Below, in pieces: positions 8,511 to 58,951 of a stretch of DNA of 64,000 bases. Numbering within the stretch: position 1 is the first letter of the stretch; each line of letters begins with the position of its first letter. The notes beneath the pieces were generated by a model, which ran no database searches, was not told the origin of the DNA, and saw only the letters and a list, made by a program, of their open reading frames with translations. Location of the stretch: the NCBI RefSeq assembly GCF_013299185.1, contig NZ_JAAFKG010000022.1:1-64000 (forward strand), written 5' to 3'. Both the position numbers and the translations under genes were made by a program. This stretch comes from Microcoleus sp. bin48.metabat.b7b8b9.023 (GTDB taxonomy: Bacteria > Cyanobacteriota > Cyanobacteriia > Cyanobacteriales > Microcoleaceae).

Positions 8511-9683
8511 ATGCAGCTCGCATCATTTGAACAAAAAATGTGGGAGAGTTCGCCAGCAAAAACTCGCACTAAAATATCCGATAGTGAAATTAACCATAAA
8601 TACGAGTTAAGAGAGAATAGAATTCTTACTGAAATCAACCGTGAAAAGCTTCCGAGTTTTGTCCAGGCTTTAAAGCAGCCTGGTTATATGGAAGTGCGAC
8701 CATTTTACCAAAGAAGGGCACGTTGGACTACCAAAATGCAATCCAAACTAATCGAATCATTTCTAGTCAATATTCCAGTTCCATCAATAATTTTATACGA
8801 AAAAGAATACTATTCATATGAGGTTATGGATGGTCAACAAAGAATTACTGCGATTCAGGATTTTTATGAAAACAAGCTTTCATTAACAGGGCTGGAACTT
8901 TGGCCTGAATTAAATGGACGTACCTACAATCAACTTCCTCAAAAAATTAGAGCAGGTATCGACCGTCGTTCTATATCATCTACAGTAATTATTGCAGAAT
9001 CAACCTCCGATCCTGAAGAGGCTCTATTCTTAAAACAAAAAACCTTCGAGCGCCTTAACACTGGAGGCGTAGATTTAAGTCAACAGGAAGTGCGAAACTG
9101 TTTGTATTATGGAAAGTTCAATGAACTGTTGCTAAAATTATCGCGCCATCCCATGTTTGCAGAAGCTTGGGGAATTCCGACACAGGATAACAGCCCCGAA
9201 TTGGAGAAAAATACCCTTTATAAAAAAATGGAAGATGCTGAGTTAGTTCTGCGTTTTTTTGCTCTCAGAAATGTTGATAATTACCAACGGGGAATGGAAG
9301 GCTTTTTAGATTTGTACATGATGAGAAGTTTAAATTTTGATGAGGAAGATATCAATTATTTGGAATCTATTTTTCTCAAAACTATCACAATAGCTCACCT
9401 AATTTACGGAGAGCATTTATTCAAACCATTTGACCAGAAAACTCAAACTTGGTCAAACAAGACTTATAAAGCATATTATGATGCAATTATGGTGGGTTTA
9501 AGTAGGTACTTGCAACATGAAAAAAGATTAATTGCTCTAAAAGACCGAATTATTGAAGAGACAAAGAATATCTTTAAAAAACCTGAATCTCGTCTTCTCA
9601 CAGGAGGCGGAAAAACCAAGGCAGAGATTCAGGAGCGAATCGGGATATTTGACGAAATGCTTTCGCAAGTGATCGGAGAGTAA
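8511..9683 (+). CDS. DUF262 (ParB/Srx-like, GmrSD N-terminal type) protein
   Basis: 390 residues from the ATG at 8511 (preceded by AGGGAG; an in-frame GTG lies at 8490). The DUF262 core is clear: PFYQRRARWTTKMQSKLIES, VMDGQQRITAI (the conserved DGQQR nucleotide-handling motif), then FERLNTGGVDLSQQEVRNC. DUF262 is the N-terminal domain of the type IV restriction enzyme GmrSD and occurs in many defence loci; no C-terminal DUF1524 HNH nuclease is present here. Only 6 bp separate it from the HEPN gene downstream, indicating one operon. A TATAAT hexamer lies at 8472-8477. Confidence 0.9.
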   Translation: MQLASFEQKMWESSPAKTRTKISDSEINHKYELRENRILTEINREKLPSFVQALKQPGYMEVRPFYQRRARWTTKMQSKLIESFLVNIPVPSIILYEKEYYSYEVMDGQQRITAIQDFYENKLSLTGLELWPELNGRTYNQLPQKIRAGIDRRSISSTVIIAESTSDPEEALFLKQKTFERLNTGGVDLSQQEVRNCLYYGKFNELLLKLSRHPMFAEAWGIPTQDNSPELEKNTLYKKMEDAELVLRFFALRNVDNYQRGMEGFLDLYMMRSLNFDEEDINYLESIFLKTITIAHLIYGEHLFKPFDQKTQTWSNKTYKAYYDAIMVGLSRYLQHEKRLIALKDRIIEETKNIFKKPESRLLTGGGKTKAEIQERIGIFDEMLSQVIGE

Positions 9684-9689
9684 CTTGCG

Positions 9690-10751
9690 ATGTTTGACGA
9701 GCTTCTCAAGACAGTCAGCCTCAAAATTTCTACTGTCCGTTCGATGATAAAGACTAACGATAGACTTAGAAAAATCGTATTTCAAGACAGTTCAGATATA
9801 AAACAGTTGAAAGAAAATCCGGAATTTGCCGCATTAATAGAAGTAATCCCTGGCAAACGAGAATGGCAAATTTACGAACGCTGTGCCGTAGTAACCCGAT
9901 TGTATGCTATTTACGAGCGCTTTGTTGAGGATTTAATTTCGGATTGGTTGCGACTGATGCCCGATTTGGTTCCGCGTTATTCAGATTTAGGAGAACAAAT
10001 CCAAAATACCCATCGAGAGGGTATAGGGCGTTTATTGATTGACATCAAAAAGAATAGGTTTCAACACCTTTCAGTTGAGCAGGTAGTACAAGGATTATCC
10101 TGTGGAATTACTGACACTGGAAAATACCAGCTACTTCCTGATGCTTTCCTAATGCGAGAGCAAAATTTACGGAAGGAAGTGTTAGAAACACTTTTGAGAA
10201 ATGCGGGAATTGATGAGGCATGGAAATGGGTAATCAACCACAAAGAAATTAAATATTTTGTAGAGGAAGTTCGCAGCCGTCAAAACTCGGCAGAAGGAGA
10301 ACTAAAACAACTGGTTGACTATCGTAATAAAGCAGCACACGGCTCTGTAAACGAGATATTGGGAATTCAAGAACTGTTGGACTTAGCTGATTTTGTTGAG
10401 GCTTTATGCAAATCCCTTGCCGATTTAGTGACCTATAATATAATTTTACTCCAGATAGATAGAGGATTGGTAAGGGAGATTGGAAACATTACTGAGTGGT
10501 TCAAAAAGCCACAAGCAGGTGTAGCGAAAGTTAAGGAAGTTACATTAACTGTAGGAGAAAGTGTTTTTCTTGTTTTAGTTAATAAGGAATTGTCGTACTG
10601 CTACTCTGCTAAAATTGAGAGCATTCAGCTTAACGATCTGTCTCAAAATCGTGTGGAGATAGCCTCGGAAACAGAATTAGGCTTAAAGTTCGATCGCGAT
10701 GCCAGAGTTGGTTTGACTATTTATGTAACGACATCCGAGCGAGTTGACTGA
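9690..10751 (+). CDS. Large HEPN-domain protein paired with DUF262
   Basis: 353 residues. The middle region, VTRLYAIYERFVEDLISDWL (about 68-87) followed by helices and DYRNKAAHGS, is typical of MAE_28990/MAE_18760-like and RiboL-PSP HEPN proteins. The catalytic-type R-x4-H motif is R212...H217 (RNKAAH). HEPN domains are RNases in many toxin-antitoxin and abortive-infection systems. Residues about 260-353 form a separate, beta-rich C-terminal domain. Tight coupling to DUF262 suggests the pair acts together: DUF262 as sensor or antitoxin, HEPN as effector (inference). Compare the second, unrelated-looking pair at 45089-46458. Confidence 0.82.
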   Translation: MFDELLKTVSLKISTVRSMIKTNDRLRKIVFQDSSDIKQLKENPEFAALIEVIPGKREWQIYERCAVVTRLYAIYERFVEDLISDWLRLMPDLVPRYSDLGEQIQNTHREGIGRLLIDIKKNRFQHLSVEQVVQGLSCGITDTGKYQLLPDAFLMREQNLRKEVLETLLRNAGIDEAWKWVINHKEIKYFVEEVRSRQNSAEGELKQLVDYRNKAAHGSVNEILGIQELLDLADFVEALCKSLADLVTYNIILLQIDRGLVREIGNITEWFKKPQAGVAKVKEVTLTVGESVFLVLVNKELSYCYSAKIESIQLNDLSQNRVEIASETELGLKFDRDARVGLTIYVTTSERVD

Positions 10752-48816: not shown

Positions 48817-49458
48817 ATGTCTCAAGATATCAGACAGTGGTTAGATGAAATTAAGCGACTGCAACAGCAGTTAACAGAGGTTTCGCGCGATCGCGATGAC
48901 GCTGGTGAAAGTGCGGCTCAATGGCGCCAACTCTACAATACCGAAGCCGAGCAGCGACGGAATGATGCTAAGTTAACTCAGCAAACTATCGATGCTTTGG
49001 AAGCACAGATACAGGAATTTCAAACTTTCTCCCCGATTGCGCCCGAAGGTGACGAAGCTGGAGTTGCACGCCAGAATGAGGTTGAACAACTGCATACAGT
49101 TGGGGAACTTAAAACTAAGTTAGCAGAAGTTCTCGAAGAGCGCGATCGGGCGATCGAACAAATTAAACAACTCACTCAAGCCCTCAAACAAGAAGAAGCC
49201 CGTCACGCCGAAACTAGCAAAAATTTAACCACCGCCCTCGGAGACGCCATTGACTTGCTGGCTAAAGCACAAACTGTTCCTACTACAAAAATGGAACCAT
49301 CACCAGCCTATTCTCTAGAAATAGTCCCTACTCGTACCGCAAATCCGGGCGAAACTGCGATCGAAATCCGCCAAAATCCCGCGCAAACCGGCCGAAATCC
49401 CGCTCAGCTTCCACCTTCTAAAAACCAGTTACTCGATTTACCGCCGTTTGGGAATTAG
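48817..49458 (+). CDS. Coiled-coil hypothetical protein
   Basis: 213 residues, start ATG 48817. N-terminal ~140 residues are a charged coiled coil (WLDEIKRLQQQLTEVSRDRD, LEAQIQEFQ, ELKTKLAEVLEERDRAIEQI); the C-terminal 60 residues are Pro/Asn-rich and disordered. Conserved-looking cyanobacterial protein without known role. It is divergent from the YihY gene with a 230-bp gap holding the STRR. Confidence 0.65.
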   Translation: MSQDIRQWLDEIKRLQQQLTEVSRDRDDAGESAAQWRQLYNTEAEQRRNDAKLTQQTIDALEAQIQEFQTFSPIAPEGDEAGVARQNEVEQLHTVGELKTKLAEVLEERDRAIEQIKQLTQALKQEEARHAETSKNLTTALGDAIDLLAKAQTVPTTKMEPSPAYSLEIVPTRTANPGETAIEIRQNPAQTGRNPAQLPPSKNQLLDLPPFGN

Positions 49459-49755: not shown

Positions 49756-51270
49756 TTACTTTTTCAGCCTACGCTGTCCTAACCAAATTAGTGTAGCAGT
49801 GAATAACCCAGCGGCGAGTGCGGCACTCAAGCTAAAGGTAATCTTAATGGCAAAAGGCAACCAAGCGCATGGAATATCTACAGTAGAAAGTGCTGAATTG
49901 AGATAAGGATTTAAGAAGTTGTCTTTTTCATCAGTCGGTATTTCGATTGAGGCGACGATGGAACCCACTGCTAGTCCAGCACCAATAATACCAACAGTGT
50001 TTTGGAAAGTGCGATCGCGCTCAGCTTGTTCTATCTCTGTAATTGCTCGACTTGAGTTGATTAAGTCTTGCAGTAATTGTAAGCCTGGACTGAGATTTGC
50101 ATAGTCTTTTTGCACTTGTAACTGGTATTTTTCCTCTACATCTTCGCTGAATTTTTCCAGGAATTTTAGATCGCAGGGGTGTTGCCAGTTCGCGATTTGA
50201 GATAACAGAGGTGTAGGATTAGTCGAGGTAGGGTTTGAGGTGGCTGTGGCAGATTGGAACCAGGATAGAATGGGGAGGATTTGAGCGATCGGGTTTTGTC
50301 CGTTTTGGGTTTGGATTTGATTTAGGCGATCGCTAATAGTACCGATCCGTCTAGTATAATTGATGGCATTAATTTCAATAGTGCGAATTTGAGCATCTAG
50401 ATAATTTAACTTTATGGTATACTTAGGTAATATATTTTGGGCATCAACAACGGTTGTGCGGAGTTGTTTGAGATTTTGACTGAAAATATTTCCTACGAGT
50501 TGGTTAATGACTGTGAAATCTTTTTTTAGGTGTTGTTTCAGATAGCGACTTTGAGCGTAAGCCCATAAAACTTTATGGCGATAGCAAAATAAGGGCAACA
50601 GTTCAGTGTTAAAATCTTCCCAAACTTTTTTGGCAGCATCACTACTAGGCATTAAGGCAATGATGAGATGGATATTCTCTTGTAGTTGTTGAATAGTGAG
50701 TGGTGTAGAATCCTGCATCAGCAGTTGATACCGCGAAAGTTCAAATATACTCCCTCCCAGAAAAGACCCTTTACCTGGTAAATCTCGTTCCCATTTCAAG
50801 CCAATATTTAAGGATTGACAGCATTTTTTAGCAACTTCTTCTGGACTAATGTTTTGGTTCTCCATCTCAGTCACAATCAGCCAGGTTTGCCCGATATTTG
50901 GGTACTGATTATTTAGCTTTTCCTTGATTTTAGCTTGAAATTTGGCAAGACAAGTGACTGGGTGAGGAGTCCTATCTTCCTTAAAAGAACAACCCAAAAG
51001 TAATCCATAGGTATCGTTCAAACGGACAGGGTAATAACAGCCTTCAAATGGTTTGTCGCTGTCAGTAAAACCCTCAAATCTATTTGTCAGTAGTTCCAGA
51101 TATTCCGATTCAAAAACAGAATCTCCGTTAAACAGGGATGATCGAATATTTGTCGGGAATTTAGCCGCAAAATTTTCCCGATTCGTTGTTAAGGATTGAG
51201 AATCTTCGCCCAATCCTTCCCCCAGGTCATAAAGAAACAGAAATAAGTTAGGATAGACGAGGTTTATCAT
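49756..51270 (-). CDS. Membrane protein of the caspase conflict locus (CATRA-like?)
   Basis: 504 residues. The N-terminal region (NLFLFLYDLGEGLGEDSQSL) and a globular part to about 200 lead into a long helical region (about 210-420) and two C-terminal membrane segments (TVGIIGAGLAVGSIVASIEI, 425-444; IKITFSLSAALAAGLFTATL, about 475-495). It overlaps the upstream small gene by 4 bp and is divergent from the caspase-STAND-WD40 gene. The layout (large protein with N-terminal domain and C-terminal membrane hairpin, small partner, caspase) recalls CATRA conflict systems; a membrane-disrupting effector is plausible but unproven. Confidence 0.6.
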   Translation of the reverse strand: MINLVYPNLFLFLYDLGEGLGEDSQSLTTNRENFAAKFPTNIRSSLFNGDSVFESEYLELLTNRFEGFTDSDKPFEGCYYPVRLNDTYGLLLGCSFKEDRTPHPVTCLAKFQAKIKEKLNNQYPNIGQTWLIVTEMENQNISPEEVAKKCCQSLNIGLKWERDLPGKGSFLGGSIFELSRYQLLMQDSTPLTIQQLQENIHLIIALMPSSDAAKKVWEDFNTELLPLFCYRHKVLWAYAQSRYLKQHLKKDFTVINQLVGNIFSQNLKQLRTTVVDAQNILPKYTIKLNYLDAQIRTIEINAINYTRRIGTISDRLNQIQTQNGQNPIAQILPILSWFQSATATSNPTSTNPTPLLSQIANWQHPCDLKFLEKFSEDVEEKYQLQVQKDYANLSPGLQLLQDLINSSRAITEIEQAERDRTFQNTVGIIGAGLAVGSIVASIEIPTDEKDNFLNPYLNSALSTVDIPCAWLPFAIKITFSLSAALAAGLFTATLIWLGQRRLKK

Positions 51271-51728
51271 TTATTGAAAGTTGTTTTAAAGAAATCTTTG
51301 AGTTTGTCCAAAGGCAATTTTTTGCTGGTTTCTACTGGGTTTAAAGTTTTCAGAACTTCGGTACTCATGTTGAGAATTTCCTGACTTTGAGAGTTTTGAA
51401 CTGGCTTAGGTTTACCAGCACGTTTTTCCAGTTTATTTTCAACTTTTAGTACCTGTTCTAGTTCAGCTTCAGTGGGTAGTAGTCCAGAGGGTATCTTACC
51501 ATCTACGGCTTCTAGCAAAGCTATAGCAACTTGATATTGCTGATTTAAGGAATCATTCGCCACAACCACCTTTATCAATCCTTTTTCGATGAGATCCCAA
51601 GCTTGATTAGCATCTAACTGTTTACCCACCTTATTTAGGGCAGCTTGTTCAGTCTCACTCAGGGGTTCATCTAAGTTGCTCAGAGCTAGCAGCAACGCTA
51701 GTAAAGTGGTGTCAATGGATGGAGTCAT
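51267..51728 (-). CDS. Small partner protein of the conflict locus (CATASP-like?)
   Basis: 153 residues, first gene of a two-gene operon; its stop overlaps the 504-residue gene start by 4 bp. Helical N-terminus (IDTTLLALLLALSNLDEPLS, ETEQAALNKVGKQLDANQAW) and region LLEAVDGKIPSGLLPTEAEL, then a basic/disordered linker with KRAGKPKP and a C-terminal helix. Not recognised with certainty; position and size match the CATRA-associated small protein (CATASP) of caspase conflict systems as I recall them. Confidence 0.5.
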   Translation of the reverse strand: MTPSIDTTLLALLLALSNLDEPLSETEQAALNKVGKQLDANQAWDLIEKGLIKVVVANDSLNQQYQVAIALLEAVDGKIPSGLLPTEAELEQVLKVENKLEKRAGKPKPVQNSQSQEILNMSTEVLKTLNPVETSKKLPLDKLKDFFKTTFNK

Positions 51729-51872
51729 AAAAATATTTTGTGGATATTACCAGTATATACAGCAACTCACAATCACTGTAATGTAGTCTTCAGCAAAAAA
51801 AACATTAAATCCGGCAGAAAGTAATTTGCTTGTGTATAGTCAGAAAAGACACTACTGCATGAGTGGGCGAAC

Positions 51873-54800
51873 ATGACGAAGCGACAAGCCTTGGTAATTG
51901 GCATCAATGAATATCCATTTGGAGACAATCTCGCTACAGCAGCACAAGATGCCGAGAAGATTGCCCAACTTTTAGAGAAATACGGTAGCTTTGAGGTGCA
52001 TCGGTTGCCAATTTATGATAAGAGGGAAGTCTCACAAGATTTACTTGTTACCTCCCCAGAACTAGAGGCGGCTATTACCCAGCTTTTTCAGCCAAAAAGT
52101 GGCATAATTCCAGAGACGGCACTTTTGTTTTTCGCGGGTCATGGTTGGCGAAGCGAGAAAGATGGACAACCTGAAGGCTTTTTAGTCACTAGCGATGCTC
52201 TTTTTGAACATGACAGCGAAGATGGCCTGTTTTCACTGAAAAGCTTACATCAAATATTAAAAGATAGTCCGGTGCGGCAGCAGATTGTGTGGTTGGATTG
52301 CTGTCATAGCGGAGAGTTATTCAATTTTATAGAGCAGAATTTAGCAGAATTTGAGCAACAGCGAGATTTTGATCGTTGTTTTATTGCCGCTTGTCGCGAA
52401 TTTCAGCTAGCTTACGGAGGGGTGCTGACTCCTGCTTTGTTGCAAGCACTTGACCCTACTAACAAAGATGATTGTAGAATTACTAATCACACATTAAAGC
52501 CAAGGCTGGAAGCAATGCCGAATAACGCATCCCAGCATTTCGTTGTCAACAATATAGGTAGTCAAATAATCCTCACATATAAAGGTGGAGTTCGGGGTAA
52601 TATTTGTCCCTACAAGGGGTTGAAATATTTTGATTTCAATCCGACCAAACCAGAGAAAGCTGAAGACCATAGATATTTCTACGGACGTATACAACTAACT
52701 AATCAGCTTCTTGATAAGGTACGCTCTAGTAATTTTATCGCGGTAGTGGGTGCATCTGGAAGTGGTAAATCTTCGGTTGTTAGAGCTGGGTTACTGTATC
52801 AGCTCTATCTGGGCAAGATGATACCTGGAAGCGATAGATGGACAATTTATCAGCCATTTACACCTGGTATTAATCCGATTAAAAGTTTAGAGCAAGTGGT
52901 TGGAAAGCTTACAGCACCGGATGATTTAGTGCATTTCATCGAGCGTCTTCCTACTGAGCGAGTGGTGCTGGTGATAGACCAATTTGAAGAGATTTTTACC
53001 CAATGTATGGATGAAAAAGAGCGACAAAAGTTCTTTATGTACCTAATGGGTGCAGTAGAAAGTTTAGAAAATAAACTCTGCTTGGTGTTGGTAATGCGGG
53101 ATGATTTTCAACAGAAGTGTACCGATCAGGAGTATCCTGGATTACCTCACAAAATTGAAAATAATTTGGTAAGAGTTCTACGGATGAACCGCCCAGAGTT
53201 GCAAGAAGTTATTCTCAAACCTGCTGAGTTAGTGGAGCTAGAAATTGATGGCGCTTTAGTCAATGAGATGATTGCTGATGTGTTGGATTCCGCTGGCGAT
53301 TTAGCTTTGTTACAGTACACACTGACTCAATTGTGGGAAAACCGTAGTTTTAATCTTTTGACAATTTCTGATTATACCAGTCTGGGTGGCGTGCAAAAGG
53401 TGCTGGGAAACCATGCTGATACTGTTTATCAATCCTTATTGTCAGAGGAACAAAAAGCGGATGGGTTAAAGGAATCAGAGGAACAAAAAGCGGCTAGACG
53501 GATTTTTCTAGAATTGACTCGATTGAGTGAAGATGAAAACACTCCTAATACTCGTCAGCAAGTTTGGCTAAAAGATTTAGTTAATTCTCAGCAATCTGAA
53601 GAATTGGTAAATAAAGTGTTGCAGCGTTTAGCTTATGAAAAATTAGTTGTCACCAGTAAGCAAGAGTTAGAGGGACAGCGAGTTGCGGTAGTGAATATCG
53701 TCCATGAAACACTGATTCGTAATTGGGGGCTGTTAGGTGGTTGGCTGGAGGAACATCGAGAAGCACTGATAATTAAACAGCCAATTGAAGATGCAGCTAA
53801 GGAATGGCGAGATAAAGGTAAGCAGCGAGAATCGGCTTATCTGCTGCAAGGAACAAAATTGGCAAAGGCAGAGGAATATATTAAGCGTTATTCTGATTTA
53901 GTACCGCTGTCTGGATCTACTCAGGAATTTGTTCAGAAAAGTATTAAAAATAGAAAAAGGAATAGCCGTAATTTATTTGTTACAGTTTCTGTAGTAATTT
54001 TGGGATTGACTGGATTAGCTGGTTGGGCTTTTACTCAGCAAAGAATAGCAGATAAACGGAAAACCAATGCTGAAATCAATGCTGAAAGCCTTAAGCTAGA
54101 AAGTCTCCTTGCCTCTGGTGTAGATATTGAAGCGCTAATAGAAGGTTTGAAAACAGGTAAAAATCTCAAGAAATTAAGTGGAGTATTGGATGCAGATACC
54201 AAAATACGAGCTACCGCAGCGTTACAACAAGTTGTCTATGGAGTTAATGAATATAATCGATTGCAAAAATATACTGATAAAGTTGAGCGTGTTGAATTTA
54301 GCCCTGATGGCAAAACACTTGTGTATCAAGTGAACCAGTTCAATGATAAGAGAGATAAAAAATTTGATCCTGCTAACCACATAATTTTTAAGCTCTGGAG
54401 CTTAGACGGTAGAGAAATTAATAGTATTAAAGGCTCATACATTGGTTTCAGTCCAGATAGCAAAACTATTGCCTATTCTAATTTTAATCAAAACGATCTA
54501 AAACTGTTGACTTTAGATGAAAAAAAACTAAAAACTATTAAATTACAATCGACAAATTTTTTCTGTGAGAACCTAGAATACAAAACTATGATTTCCATGA
54601 ATAATGATACAGACATTATAAAACTGTGGAGTCTAGATGGACAATTACTAAAAACTATAAAAATACCTCCATACTATGGTATTGGTGACTTTAGTTGTAG
54701 TTTAGATGGTAAATTATTAGCCTTTAAAAATGGCTCAGTAGTAAATTTAGAAACATCAGAAATAAAAACTCTCAAAGAGCCACATAAAAATAATATCTGG

Positions 54801-56132
54801 GGTATCGGAATCAGCCCAAATAACAAAATAGTTGCTTCTGGCGGTAGGGATGGCACTATTAAATTATGGAATTTAGATACAGATGAAGTCAAAACCATTA
54901 AAGCAGATATAGGTCAAGTTTGGGATGTCAAATTTAGCCCAGATGGCAAAACGATTGCTGCAAGTGGAGATAGAATGATTAAGATATGGAACTTAGATGC
55001 AAAATTAGTCAAAACTCTTAGGGGAAATACCGATCTTATCCGTACTGTCAGTTTTAGTCCAGATGGTAAAATCCTCGCCTCTGGCAGTATGGATGGTACT
55101 GTAAAGCTCTGGAATTTACAAGGACAGGGACTCACTGCCCTGAAAGAGCCTAACTACGATAAGAATAATTCTGTTGAAAGTGCCAGCTTTAGTCCTGATG
55201 GTAAGTTGGTTACTTCGATAACAGGAAATGGCATAGTAAAGTTATGGGATTTGCAAGGAAGGAAACTTAAAACATTTAGTCATACCCAACAAAACGACGC
55301 ATATTCTCCTTCGTATAGTGTCAGTTTTAGCCCTGATAGTAAGACAGTATTCTCTTTGAAGACTGTTCCCTCTGCAAATGGAGATAACGGCATAATAGAA
55401 ATACGAAACCTAAATGGACAACTACTTAATACTCTGAAAACGGGTAGAGGTTTTAGCTTGAGTGCCAATGGCAAAATGATGTCTACTTCAGAGGGTGGCA
55501 TAGTGAAGTTATGGAACATAACTGGGCAGCCAATTAATAGTATAAAAGCAGATAAAAATCCGATCAATAGCATCAGTTTCAGTAGCGATGGAAAAATTGT
55601 AGCCACTTCCAATGGCAACATTATCAAGCTGTTTAATATAGATGGAAAAATAATGAAAATACTTCAAGGCGACGGTGCTTTTTTTATTCCTATTAGTCTC
55701 AGCCCAGATGGTAAAATGATTGCTGCTGCTGGTAATGATAATATGGTGAAGTTATGGAATGTGGATAGCCAAGAATTCAAAAATCTCCAAGGGCATAGTC
55801 AGCCCGTTACTAGCGTTACTTTTAGTCTGGATAGTCAGACTATTATTTCTTCTAGTGAGGATGGTACGGTAAAACTTTGGAGTTTGGAAGGACAAGAGTT
55901 AAGCACTCTGAAGGGACATATCCCTGGTGGAGTGAATGAGATTAGTCTTAGCCCGAATGGTAAAATAATTGCCTCTGCTGGTGATGATGGAACTGTTATT
56001 TTATGGAATCTAGATTTGGATGATTTAATGTCACGAGGCTGTAACTGGCTGCATGACTATTTGAAGAACAACCAAAATGTGAGTGATAGTGATAAACATC
56101 TCTGTGATGGGATTAGTAATGAGAAAAATTGA
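51873..56132 (+). CDS. Caspase - nSTAND NTPase - WD40 repeat protein
   Basis: 1419 residues. Caspase (C14) domain 1-240 with catalytic H90 (FFAGHG) and C144 (WLDCCHSG). nSTAND NTPase about 255-560: YKGLKYFDF, FYGRIQLTNQLL, Walker A GASGSGKSS (about 292-300), Walker B VVLVIDQFEEIF. A membrane-like segment (LFVTVSVVILGLTGLAGWAF, about 699-718) is followed by a WD40 propeller region (about 790-1395) with many blades ending in IKLWxL. Such proteins act as conflict sensors in filamentous cyanobacteria: WD40 sensing, STAND switch, caspase effector. Catalytic residues intact. Last codons lie in DNA similar to a Uma2 gene fragment. Confidence 0.93.
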   Translation: MTKRQALVIGINEYPFGDNLATAAQDAEKIAQLLEKYGSFEVHRLPIYDKREVSQDLLVTSPELEAAITQLFQPKSGIIPETALLFFAGHGWRSEKDGQPEGFLVTSDALFEHDSEDGLFSLKSLHQILKDSPVRQQIVWLDCCHSGELFNFIEQNLAEFEQQRDFDRCFIAACREFQLAYGGVLTPALLQALDPTNKDDCRITNHTLKPRLEAMPNNASQHFVVNNIGSQIILTYKGGVRGNICPYKGLKYFDFNPTKPEKAEDHRYFYGRIQLTNQLLDKVRSSNFIAVVGASGSGKSSVVRAGLLYQLYLGKMIPGSDRWTIYQPFTPGINPIKSLEQVVGKLTAPDDLVHFIERLPTERVVLVIDQFEEIFTQCMDEKERQKFFMYLMGAVESLENKLCLVLVMRDDFQQKCTDQEYPGLPHKIENNLVRVLRMNRPELQEVILKPAELVELEIDGALVNEMIADVLDSAGDLALLQYTLTQLWENRSFNLLTISDYTSLGGVQKVLGNHADTVYQSLLSEEQKADGLKESEEQKAARRIFLELTRLSEDENTPNTRQQVWLKDLVNSQQSEELVNKVLQRLAYEKLVVTSKQELEGQRVAVVNIVHETLIRNWGLLGGWLEEHREALIIKQPIEDAAKEWRDKGKQRESAYLLQGTKLAKAEEYIKRYSDLVPLSGSTQEFVQKSIKNRKRNSRNLFVTVSVVILGLTGLAGWAFTQQRIADKRKTNAEINAESLKLESLLASGVDIEALIEGLKTGKNLKKLSGVLDADTKIRATAALQQVVYGVNEYNRLQKYTDKVERVEFSPDGKTLVYQVNQFNDKRDKKFDPANHIIFKLWSLDGREINSIKGSYIGFSPDSKTIAYSNFNQNDLKLLTLDEKKLKTIKLQSTNFFCENLEYKTMISMNNDTDIIKLWSLDGQLLKTIKIPPYYGIGDFSCSLDGKLLAFKNGSVVNLETSEIKTLKEPHKNNIWGIGISPNNKIVASGGRDGTIKLWNLDTDEVKTIKADIGQVWDVKFSPDGKTIAASGDRMIKIWNLDAKLVKTLRGNTDLIRTVSFSPDGKILASGSMDGTVKLWNLQGQGLTALKEPNYDKNNSVESASFSPDGKLVTSITGNGIVKLWDLQGRKLKTFSHTQQNDAYSPSYSVSFSPDSKTVFSLKTVPSANGDNGIIEIRNLNGQLLNTLKTGRGFSLSANGKMMSTSEGGIVKLWNITGQPINSIKADKNPINSISFSSDGKIVATSNGNIIKLFNIDGKIMKILQGDGAFFIPISLSPDGKMIAAAGNDNMVKLWNVDSQEFKNLQGHSQPVTSVTFSLDSQTIISSSEDGTVKLWSLEGQELSTLKGHIPGGVNEISLSPNGKIIASAGDDGTVILWNLDLDDLMSRGCNWLHDYLKNNQNVSDSDKHLCDGISNEKN

Positions 56133-56160
56133 GCTAATTTTCACCTCAATATATTCTTTC
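56118..56160. repeat. Fragment of an antisense Uma2 gene
   Basis: GAAAAATTGAGCTA...ACCTC.ATATATTCTTTCC matches 56993-57034 inside the Uma2 gene at about 35 of 40 positions. It overlaps the stop of the caspase gene, so a Uma2 relic borders or forms the junction. Confidence 0.6.
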
Positions 56161-56250
56161 CTAACGTGGCTTGGCTACGCTACTGCACGATCGCCATATA
56201 CCCATGCTAAAATAAACTCAATAAATTTAAAAAACTTAGGAATAAATAAA

Positions 56251-56847
56251 ATGTCTTACAGTCAGTTCACCTTAGAAATGGTCGAACAAGTCTTTGGGCT
56301 AAGTATTATTGAAAAGCTTGATAGTTTCGCCGAAGTGCCAGAAGCTCCTATTAGTAATTTCTTAAAACAGTGTCTCGAATACAATACTCCTTTGGCATTA
56401 GAAATTTCGACAGAAAAAGCGCGATCGGAAATGATTATTGCACCAATATTGATTGAACTAAAACAGCAACTTGGATCTAAAATAAGTCTGTTTTCAGGTA
56501 GAGAATTCAATGTGGATAGTCAACAAGGGCTGATGGGATATTGTGATTTTATAATTAGTAAGTCTTCGTCTCAATTGATGATTAAATCACCCGTGATTTT
56601 AATCGTGGAAGCTAAAAATGATAATATTCAATCTGGTTTAGGTCAGTGTATTGCCGAGATGGTAGCAGCACAAATAATTAATCAACGTCAAAGTAATAAT
56701 GAAATGATTTATGGTGCTGTAACGACTGGAACAAACTGGAAATTTATGAAATTATTTGATTCTGTAGTTGAAATAGATCCTAATGAATATTTCCTGAATA
56801 ATGTCGCTAAGCTAATGGGTATATTAAGAAGTTTTATCGGCTCGTGA
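56251..56847 (+). CDS. PD-(D/E)XK nuclease-like protein next to the caspase gene
   Basis: 198 residues from ATG 56251 (the upstream in-frame part is relic DNA). Core: MGYCDFIISKSSSQLMIKSP then VILIVEAKNDNIQSGLGQCI, giving D...ExK as in PD-(D/E)XK nucleases, followed by AAQIINQRQS and YGAVTTGTNWKFM (a typical YxxxTxGxxW continuation). N-terminal ~75 residues are helical. Its position downstream of the caspase-WD40 gene suggests a defence role, but it has its own upstream gap of 118 bp. Confidence 0.72.
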   Translation: MSYSQFTLEMVEQVFGLSIIEKLDSFAEVPEAPISNFLKQCLEYNTPLALEISTEKARSEMIIAPILIELKQQLGSKISLFSGREFNVDSQQGLMGYCDFIISKSSSQLMIKSPVILIVEAKNDNIQSGLGQCIAEMVAAQIINQRQSNNEMIYGAVTTGTNWKFMKLFDSVVEIDPNEYFLNNVAKLMGILRSFIGS

Positions 56848-56876: not shown

Positions 56877-57512
56877 TTAGAGTTCTCCCGATTTTTCTTT
56901 CGCCCATGCTCGCACGGCTTTACGCAAAGAAAGCCTCCCAGAATTACGATTTTGCTCGATTAATTGCGGTATTTCTTGTATCGGAAGAGTTGGAAAAATT
57001 GAGCTAGTTTGTACCTCTATATATTCTTTCCCCGACCGTTGGTAAATTTTCAGTTCACCAGAATCATAACACCAAATTTCAGGAGCACCCAACCGAGCAT
57101 AAATTGGAAAACGACTGAGAGATTTACTTGTTACGTCTATTTCTAAAGCCAAATCAGGCGGCGGATCTTGTTCCAAATTAAACTGGAGTTTGCCACGAAT
57201 TTTTGACTCGTTTTGGAAATAGAAACAATTGTCTGGTTCTACCCCAGCTTTTTGGATTTCTCGCTTCCAAGTGGTTGACCCTAAACTTTCGTAGTCTTGC
57301 TCCAACACTTCTGCGATATCTTGAATGGAAATGCCGATCGTTTCTTTGTAGTATTCATGCTCGGGTAAGGGTGTCATAATTTCTAAAGTTCCATTATCAT
57401 AGGCGACTCTAGCAGCACGGCTTTCACCGATATCCACGAGCAAGTTCTCAAATTGTTGCCAACTGATATTATATAGAACAACTCGATCGGCACGAGGCTT
57501 AGTTAGTAACAT
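56877..57512 (-). CDS. Uma2/DUF820 family restriction-endonuclease-like protein 2
   Basis: 211 residues. SWQQFENLLVDIGESRAARV, AYDNGTLEIMTPLPEHEYYK, PPPDLALEIDVTSKSLSRFP (PD...ExD/K core) and YARLGAPEIWCYDSGELKIY are standard DUF820 features. The C-terminus (SLRKAVRAWAKEK) is usual for the family. Convergent with the nuclease-like gene upstream. Different subgroup from 38325-38912. Biological role unknown. Confidence 0.9.
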   Translation of the reverse strand: MLLTKPRADRVVLYNISWQQFENLLVDIGESRAARVAYDNGTLEIMTPLPEHEYYKETIGISIQDIAEVLEQDYESLGSTTWKREIQKAGVEPDNCFYFQNESKIRGKLQFNLEQDPPPDLALEIDVTSKSLSRFPIYARLGAPEIWCYDSGELKIYQRSGKEYIEVQTSSIFPTLPIQEIPQLIEQNRNSGRLSLRKAVRAWAKEKSGEL

Positions 57513-57826: not shown

Positions 57827-58951
57827 TTAAAATCCCATCGCGCCAGCTACTGCTTCCAGACTCGGAGCAATCCCTTGTTTAAAGTTGTTCTTGCTGTGAT
57901 TGATTGCCGTATCTGGATCTTTTAAACCGTTACCGGTGAGCACGCAAACCACTGTTGCTCCTGTCGGAACTTGGTCTTTTACCTTCAGCAAACCAGCTAC
58001 AGAAGCGGCGCTTGCTGGTTCGCAAAAAATCCCTTCTTCAGATGCTAACAAGCGGTAAGCGTCGAGAATTTCTTCGTCGGTGACAGCAGAAAAACTGCCG
58101 CGGCTGGCTTCGGAGGCAGCAACAGCCTGTTTCCAGCTAGCAGGGTTCCCGATCCGAATTGCTGTCGCCAAAGTTTCTGGGTGCGACACTGGTGCACCCA
58201 TTACCAACGGTGCTGCTCCGGCTGCTTGGAATCCCATCATTCGCGGCAGGCGCGAACATTTATTCACTTGATGGTATTGACAAAAACCCATCCAGTATGC
58301 AGTAATGTTTCCCGCATTTCCCACGGGAATGCACAGCCAGTCGGGGGCATCGCCCAAGGCGTCCACCACTTCAAACGCGCCGGTTTTTTGGCCTTCCAAG
58401 CGGTAAGGGTTGACGGAGTTGACCAAAGTTACGGGATAATTTTCTGCCATAGAGCGGACAATTTCTAAAGCCCGATCGAAATTTCCTTGAATCGAAATCA
58501 CTTCCGCACCGTAAAGCAAAGCTTGGGCCAACTTGCCCAAAGCCACGTAACCTTCGGGAATCAACACGAAAGCCCGCATTCCCCCGCGTCTGGCGTAGGC
58601 TGCTGCCGCTGCCGAAGTATTGCCGGTACTGGCGCAAATTACAGCTTTGGCGCCGGCTTCCTTCGCCTTGGAAATCGCCATGGTCATCCCCCGGTCTTTG
58701 AAACTACCAGTGGGGTTGAGGCCGTCGTATTTCACCAGCACGCGCACGTCTCTACCGATGAGAGAGGCGATCGCCGGTGCTGGAATCAGGGGAGTATTGC
58801 CCTCTTGGAGCGTCACTACCGGCGTGGTTTCCGTCACAGGCAGGTAGGGGCGATAAGCTTCGATCAAGCCCGGCCAGCCGTAGTGTTTCGGCGAGGCTGC
58901 GCGGGCAGCGGAGTTAGCAGCAGAGTCAGTAGCAGGTAGAATCAGGGTCAC
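57827..58951 (-). CDS. thrC: Threonine synthase
   Basis: 374 residues, PLP-dependent; converts O-phospho-L-homoserine to L-threonine. PLP lysine K85 in [11 protein letters not shown], asparagine loop [14 protein letters not shown], phosphate-binding [12 protein letters not shown], and C-terminal [14 protein letters not shown]. Length (~370) and motifs fit the short plant/actinobacterial-type cyanobacterial enzyme. Monocistronic here, with threonine aldolase and threonine deaminase elsewhere in the window. Start ATG 58951; the Ala/Ser-rich first 20 residues may be a spacer. Confidence 0.96.

Follow-up and report, generated by a model that had tools for sequence, protein, structure and literature searches.

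In a 64,000-nt window of the presumably filamentous cyanobacterium Microcoleus sp. bin48.metabat.b7b8b9.023, taken from one contig (NZ_JAAFKG010000022.1, here C41) of a 7.5-Mb, 125-contig genome, we identified a three-gene set that looks like a bacterial self-destruct or defense switch. The set encodes a caspase-nSTAND1-WD40 protein, a 153-residue helical protein (Small) and a 504-residue membrane protein (Big). Relatives of Big recur with Small and with either a caspase or a CHAT protease beside them, and the recurrence of this trio is not chance. Our best reading is that the module works like caspase-gasdermin systems, without a gasdermin.

Linkage of the three genes and their partner proteases

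In the window, Big (504 aa; positions 49756-51270, minus strand) is an open reading frame (ORF) with an alpha/beta N-domain, long helices and a C-terminal membrane hairpin. Its ORF overlaps by 4 nt that of Small (153 aa; 51267-51728, minus strand), which is all-helical and adaptor-like. Both diverge from the caspase gene (1419 aa; 51873-56132, plus strand), whose product is a predicted sensor and protease according to its profile matches and catalytic dyad. A first-pass annotation of this DNA had described the same arrangement, and the ORF coordinates agree with it exactly. The 144-nt intergenic region between the divergent starts (51729-51872) presumably holds the promoters; a sigma-70 promoter scan returned no site in it. 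Big and the caspase gene have ratios of nonsynonymous to synonymous substitution rates (dN/dS) of 0.35 and 0.36, respectively, in a comparison of the window with genome G001. For Small the ratio is 1.05 (51267-51728 compared with 9482-9943 of locus L034 in G001), a value from only 153 codons with few sites that could reflect fast evolution.

We searched for this set using Big alone as the query, so that the neighbors of each match were unselected. Matches were found in 72 of 98 related genomes, and a scan of one genome per species, covering 84,980 species, returned 190 relatives. The best 80 of these 190, which we used, come from 78 cyanobacteria and two Beggiatoa-like bacteria (Thiotrichaceae). 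Together with the window and 40 chosen regions of related genomes they make up 121 loci, which collapse to 102 distinct Bigs, fragments included. Small adjoins Big in 87 of the 102 distinct loci, and a clan-CD protease lies within 2.5 kb upstream of Big in 86 (62 caspases and 24 CHAT proteases), with one more downstream. When only loci with enough contig are counted, the upstream protease is present in 78 of 84, compared with 4/69, 3/63, 5/93, 2/85 and 3/78 (2-6%) in control bins of equal size. A lack of conserved linkage to caspase genes, which would have counted against the first-pass annotation, is contradicted by the 62 caspase-linked loci, alongside the 24 CHAT-linked ones. Since the loci are mostly closer relatives, these figures hold for them rather than for every remote paralogue. 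Mantel correlations were also high (r 0.67-0.88, with none of 2000 permutations as high), but we do not use them as proof, because shared species history alone can give them.

The 1419-aa protein matches the PADLOC caspase model (E = 6.9e-15) and an NCBIfam caspase model (2.9e-15, below that model's cut-off). The nSTAND1 profile matches residues 246-652 at 4.7e-106, with 356 bits against a curated cut-off of 27.1, and WD40 repeats match at up to 2.7e-74, confirming the STAND NTPase and the WD40 sensor part that had been read from the sequence at first pass. The p20 caspase residues His90, Asp142 and Cys144 are invariant across 38 aligned partner caspases; the catalytic His and Cys, as the annotation had stated, are intact. 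More broadly, all 56 partner caspases that reach 200 aa have both the His and the Cys motif. By analogy to the pocket described in the available text of PMC8283722, whose Asp-Cys-Cys we matched by eye to residues 142-144 here, Asp142 is predicted to be the S1-type residue, which in turn predicts a basic P1 residue. Among the 38 caspase partners scanned for domains, 37 carry Peptidase_C14, 32 nSTAND1 and 26 WD40, with iSTAND or NACHT-HEAT on single others. The CHAT partners that were scanned carry TPR arrays, and the 17 that were aligned share one invariant His and one invariant Cys.

A tree built from 92 Bigs mostly separates the caspase-linked forms from the CHAT-linked ones. Four copies (three from Okeania and one from Hydrocoleum) with a divergent TPR-CHAT gene nevertheless sit inside a supported caspase-linked clade, and a caspase-linked Trichodesmium copy shares a five-row group with them. 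Synteny and tree thus show that caspase and TPR-CHAT proteases replace each other in the same slot. We counted three partner changes on the tree, one of which (L143) is doubtful because the locus is labelled caspase in the tree, yet has a CHAT gene 3.4 kb upstream.

Small, Big and a fused sister architecture

The AlphaFold2 model of Small is all-helical, with a mean predicted local distance difference test score (pLDDT) of 69.6 that falls below 50 in a loop at residues 97-114. Small has no significant fold match and no significant sequence match. Inside the low-confidence loop, the window's Small carries the pair Arg103-Ala104. Of 61 caspase-linked Smalls, 51 have a basic residue at position 103 (41 Arg, 10 Lys), and 57 have Gly, Ala or Pro at the next position, 104. 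This basic residue persists at low identity: both members are basic at 103 in 68% of 1583 Small pairs below 40% identity, compared with at most 10% for the other positions from 91 to 120, and 18 of 23 clusters formed at 45% identity are basic at this position. Orthocaspases cut after positively charged residues (PMC6426788 and PMC8283722, in their available parts), and in bacterial gasdermins the cut follows Leu or Arg, one of them requiring both that Leu and the Gly next to it (PMC9612521, likewise in part). From the conserved basic pair and these cleavage preferences, we make the specific prediction that the caspase would cut Small at Arg103-Ala104.

The CHAT-linked Smalls (L060-L069, L136-L153) have a conserved Arg of their own, in 20 of 22 at column 78 of their alignment and often within Arg-Ser-Lys-Gly, and this residue may be a CHAT cleavage site. 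At two further loci, one on contig C77 of the window's own genome (L046) and one on plasmid2 of Nostoc carneum (L088/L213), the Small-Big pair lies between an upstream caspase gene and a downstream CHAT/TPR gene; at each of them, Phe stands where Small would have its basic residue.

Big consists of an alpha/beta N-domain (residues 1-207), long helices (210-420) and a hairpin with hydrophobic segments at 421-440 and 466-499, which correspond to the two C-terminal membrane segments noted at first pass. At least two C-terminal hydrophobic segments are found by hydropathy in 81 of 92 Bigs, and 89 of the 92 carry a net positive charge over their final 12 residues. An AlphaFold2 model built from 35 sequences has a pLDDT of 83.6 and a predicted template modelling score (pTM) of 0.74. 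When we searched the PDB for similar folds, ranks 1-26 were all CorA/Mrs2 magnesium channels (best E = 6.8e-4), and in a viral structure library CorA-like proteins took ranks 2 and 8, with nothing under 0.001. We also compared profiles with HHalign, with 92 Bigs as input, of which the program retained 81. The probability was 28.6 (P = 6e-4) for a set of 30 cyanobacterial CorA sequences and 16.1 (P = 1.6e-3) for 48 mixed CorA sequences; the mixed set derives from 60 loci, minus eight without a GMN-like motif and minus four shorter than 280 or longer than 480 aa. The alignment is weak, but its collinearity extends as far as both membrane helices. When one side was reversed as a control, P was 0.22-0.38; a both-reversed pair, which is not an independent null, gave 0.019. 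These comparisons are no more than suggestive of a CorA-like fold for Big, which we treat as likely. Pfam CorA gave no match to the window's Big at E<=1. By sequence, Big matched no solved structure (best E = 0.013, to a designed coiled coil), and neither Big nor Small had a convincing Pfam, PADLOC or NCBIfam family match. The 16 PADLOC families matched by 35 Bigs look like coiled-coil noise, and none is named CorA.

In four genomes (L253, L254, L255 and L256), Small forms the N-terminal part of a 725-767-aa protein whose C-terminal end is a CHAT domain (E = 2e-12 to 9e-9 in Pfam). The next gene after each fusion encodes a protein of about 550 aa with a signal-like N-terminus and membrane segments. 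Its relationship to Big is not clear: HHalign gave P = 0.24, and a hidden Markov model (HMM) gave one match of 6.5 bits (E = 5e-4, in a set of just four sequences). In two of the four genomes (L254 and L256), the fusion gene has a divergent caspase gene as its neighbor; none lies in the stretch read beside the fusion in L253, and in L255 the contig ends where an adjacent caspase gene might lie. A fusion of this kind is how an adaptor or a cleavable pro-domain would look, and it suggests a protease-to-protease cascade. Small-CHAT together with the ~550-aa membrane protein is apparently an unnamed sister architecture.

Plasmid-borne copies and a variable chromosomal site

The module is patchily distributed. 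Of 292 cyanobacterial genomes sampled from across the phylum, 22 have a match to a profile of Small, and genomes with relatives of the module have several paralogues. Twelve plasmid records carry homologues of Big, and 11 of these plasmids are mobilizable or conjugative; judged by coordinates and identity, nine of the records appear to be near-copies that fall into three sets. In each of the three plasmid records that we read, a small hypothetical gene lies upstream of Big. The gene beyond it is annotated as a pentapeptide-repeat protein in two records and as CHAT in one; by our own profiles, the first of these neighbors (L088) is a caspase-nSTAND gene. On contig C128 of genome G023 (L035), a Big homologue that is 82% identical to the window's Big over the matched part is broken by several stops, and we found neither Small nor a protease beside it.

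In the window's genus, the module occupies a variable chromosomal site. The interval between a conserved coiled-coil-like ORF on the left (48817-49458, plus strand) and a gene on the right that we take to be threonine-synthase-like (57827-58951, minus strand), both outside the module, ranges from about 0.3 to 11 kb. We examined 20 of 27 other same-genus genomes; both flanks are present in 19, and in the remaining one (L201) one flank is off the contig. The module is found in none of the 19 site copies with both flanks, and G001 (L034), taken separately from these, has the full module at the site. Two same-genus genomes have TPR-CHAT genes there instead (L194, 6662-9730; L198, 7385-11689), each preceded by a gene for a protein of about 300 aa that in L194 is weakly DUF4384-like. 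The site may thus be a hotspot for CHAT systems.

In the window, the space between the module and the right flank is filled by two other genes. One (56083-56847, plus strand; true start probably near 56248) encodes a PD-(D/E)XK nuclease of a CRISPR-associated PADLOC type (3.9e-53), and the other (56877-57512, minus strand) belongs to the Uma2 family. Genome G008 (L194) keeps a 37-aa nuclease match and the Uma2 gene, with TPR-CHAT in place of the module.

Mechanism, rival explanations and known systems

The mechanism that we favor, and to which we give an even chance, is that a STAND-gated caspase (or CHAT protease) cuts Small and so activates Big, a CorA-like membrane effector. Judging from the protein families, the WD40 propeller and the STAND NTPase would sense a trigger and oligomerize the N-terminal caspase. 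The activated caspase would then cut Small after Arg103 in the disordered loop, as the conserved Lys/Arg-Gly/Ala/Pro pair suggests. Intact Small might hold Big inactive or might nucleate it; cleavage would let Big, helical, CorA-like and lacking GMN, open or disrupt the membrane, and the cell, infected or stressed, would then arrest or die. A TPR-CHAT protease can fill the caspase's slot. The data show the genes, their linkage, the dyads, the motif, the replacement of partners and the distribution over plasmids and the variable site, from which we infer the trigger, the cleavage, the channel and the part in defense. The first-pass annotation had likewise proposed that caspase cleavage could release or activate the membrane protein, as an analogue of caspase-gasdermin logic with a WD40 sensor. 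The linkage, the intact dyads and the cleavage-like motif support that general idea; the motif points to the 153-aa protein, rather than the membrane protein, as the one that would be cut. We put forward more tentatively, as a possibility that we think will probably not hold in full, that this is an unnamed death module in which a STAND-caspase or TPR-CHAT protease cuts an adaptor at a conserved Lys/Arg-Gly site to open a filter-less, CorA-derived channel, with the sister Small-CHAT fusion beside a caspase acting as an initiator-to-executioner cascade.

Several observations weigh against the favored mechanism. No protease lies within 2.5 kb up- or downstream of Big in 15 of the 102 loci, eight of which have less than 1.5 kb of contig upstream and two of which (L035 and L043) are fragments. 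A cruder motif count finds both His and Cys in only 17 of 24 CHAT partners, the others being fragments or variant motifs. Position 103 is non-basic in 10 of the 61 caspase-linked Smalls (Phe in four, Leu in four, Asn and Ala in one each), and co-directional CHAT-linked Smalls do not have the Lys/Arg-Gly/Ala/Pro motif. None of the four fused Smalls is basic at 103, an argument against a single fixed cleavage site, and no Big stands beside these fusions, so Small would not act only on Big. The conserved loop motif could equally be a docking peptide. For Big as the effector, the hairpin region of the model has a pLDDT of only about 55-81, and the CorA/Mrs2 matches have template modelling (TM) scores of 0.14-0.26 by query length and root-mean-square deviations of 16-23 Å. 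Just one fold match falls under E = 0.001, and helical proteins and alpha-pore toxins rank lower in the same list. The HHalign probability of 16-29% is low, Pfam CorA is not among the 25 of 96 families listed for 35 Bigs, and a GMN motif occurs in the last 130 residues of none of the 102 Bigs. As for a role in defense, relatives of Big were not found in the viral contigs or phages searched.

In one alternative, Big would serve as anchor or receptor in the membrane and Small would bring the protease there as an adaptor, following the logic of effector-associated domains, with toxicity coming from proteolysis of other host proteins. Small is N-terminal on a CHAT protease that is followed by a different membrane protein, and caspase and CHAT interchange, as this explanation would have it. 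It leaves the conservation of the basic-Gly pair in Small unexplained, however, and the WD40/STAND part is already a sensor; we regard it as improbable. We find it unlikely that the logic is directly gasdermin-like, with the caspase or CHAT protease cutting linkers of Big (about 320-370 or 440-470) and Small serving only to present it. The model of Big has low-confidence stretches at those linkers, and a helical domain that is also fused to a CHAT protease is adaptor-like, but the stretch around 320-365 has many gaps and little conservation among the aligned Bigs, and the cleavage-like pair is conserved in Small instead. A housekeeping or developmental signaling module of largely filamentous cyanobacteria, with no part in death or defense, would account for the cyanobacterial origin of 78 of the best 80 relatives (the other two being Beggiatoa-like), many of whose cyanobacterial genera are presumably filamentous, and for the several paralogues per genome. 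The patchy distribution of Small (22/292), the copies on mobile plasmids, the absence of the module from all 19 readable same-genus site copies and the decayed Big homologue in a relative argue against such a role, and we consider it quite improbable.

The first-pass annotation had also related the 504- and 153-aa proteins to CATRA and CATASP. CATRA systems consist of a caspase, a mid-size protein and a small protein, a layout that the module shares. Neither CATRA-N (PF20269) nor CATASP (PF20271) matches at Big or Small. CATRA-N has no match at E<=10 in the window's own genome, and none in 386 cyanobacterial genomes, 398 Pseudomonadota genomes or seven plasmid records (six actinobacterial, one chloroflexal), an absence that is not proven because no positive control rang in the cyanobacterial, Pseudomonadota and plasmid searches. 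CATASP was searched for in the own genome and by comparing Pfam with 34 Smalls: the genome has only two sub-threshold matches (E = 0.34 and 2.11), neither at a copy of the small gene. CATRA-N is not among the 25 of 96 Pfam families listed for 35 Bigs, nor CATASP among the 25 of 43 listed for the 34 Smalls. The module further differs in that its caspase partners mostly carry STAND-WD40. Membership in CATRA is therefore not supported, and a divergent branch with Big and Small as remote relatives of the CATRA protein and CATASP is very unlikely, even though the TPR-containing CHAT partners recall the name, which stands for 'Caspase and TPR repeat-associated' (PMC12657218, in its available part).

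The module resembles several known systems in part. Bacterial gasdermin operons also place a clan-CD protease (Peptidase C14 or CHAT) beside a membrane-acting protein and have NLR/NACHT-type genes in their neighborhoods, as described in the available text of PMC9612521; the likeness extends to the adjacent protease with an intact dyad in every partner caspase counted above. The module differs in that Big is alpha-helical with a two-helix hairpin and the candidate cleavage site lies in a separate small protein. No gasdermin is found among the Pfam, PADLOC and NCBIfam matches of the window's Big, or among the 50 PDB fold matches listed for it. A CorA-family membrane effector serves type III-B CRISPR in the SAM-AMP pathway and has a large N-terminal cytosolic domain and a C-terminal CorA-like membrane domain, with presumed membrane disruption (PMC10600005, in part); that such an effector is known makes a protease-gated one plausible. 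The CRISPR effector is gated by a nucleotide messenger, whereas Big would be gated by the adjacent protease. In Craspase (TPR-CHAT and Csx30), activated TPR-CHAT similarly cuts one protein encoded nearby (PMC9729208, in part), whereas here caspase is the commoner partner (62 compared with 24). Taken by itself, the 1419-aa gene is ordinary, as orthocaspases with WD40 and AAA_16 are known and WD40 is their commonest accessory domain (26%) in the available text of PMC8283722, a survey that treats the domains of caspase proteins and does not use the word 'operon'. Within literature coverage that leaves out preprints and most subscription papers, we found no paper about the trio by title or abstract.

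If the favored reading is true, the module would be a gasdermin-independent route for a bacterial caspase to act on the membrane, and caspase and CHAT proteases would be shown to replace each other within one pathway. To our knowledge, the natural substrates of cyanobacterial orthocaspases are largely unknown; the module would provide a specific one, with a compact predicted substrate and a predicted site.

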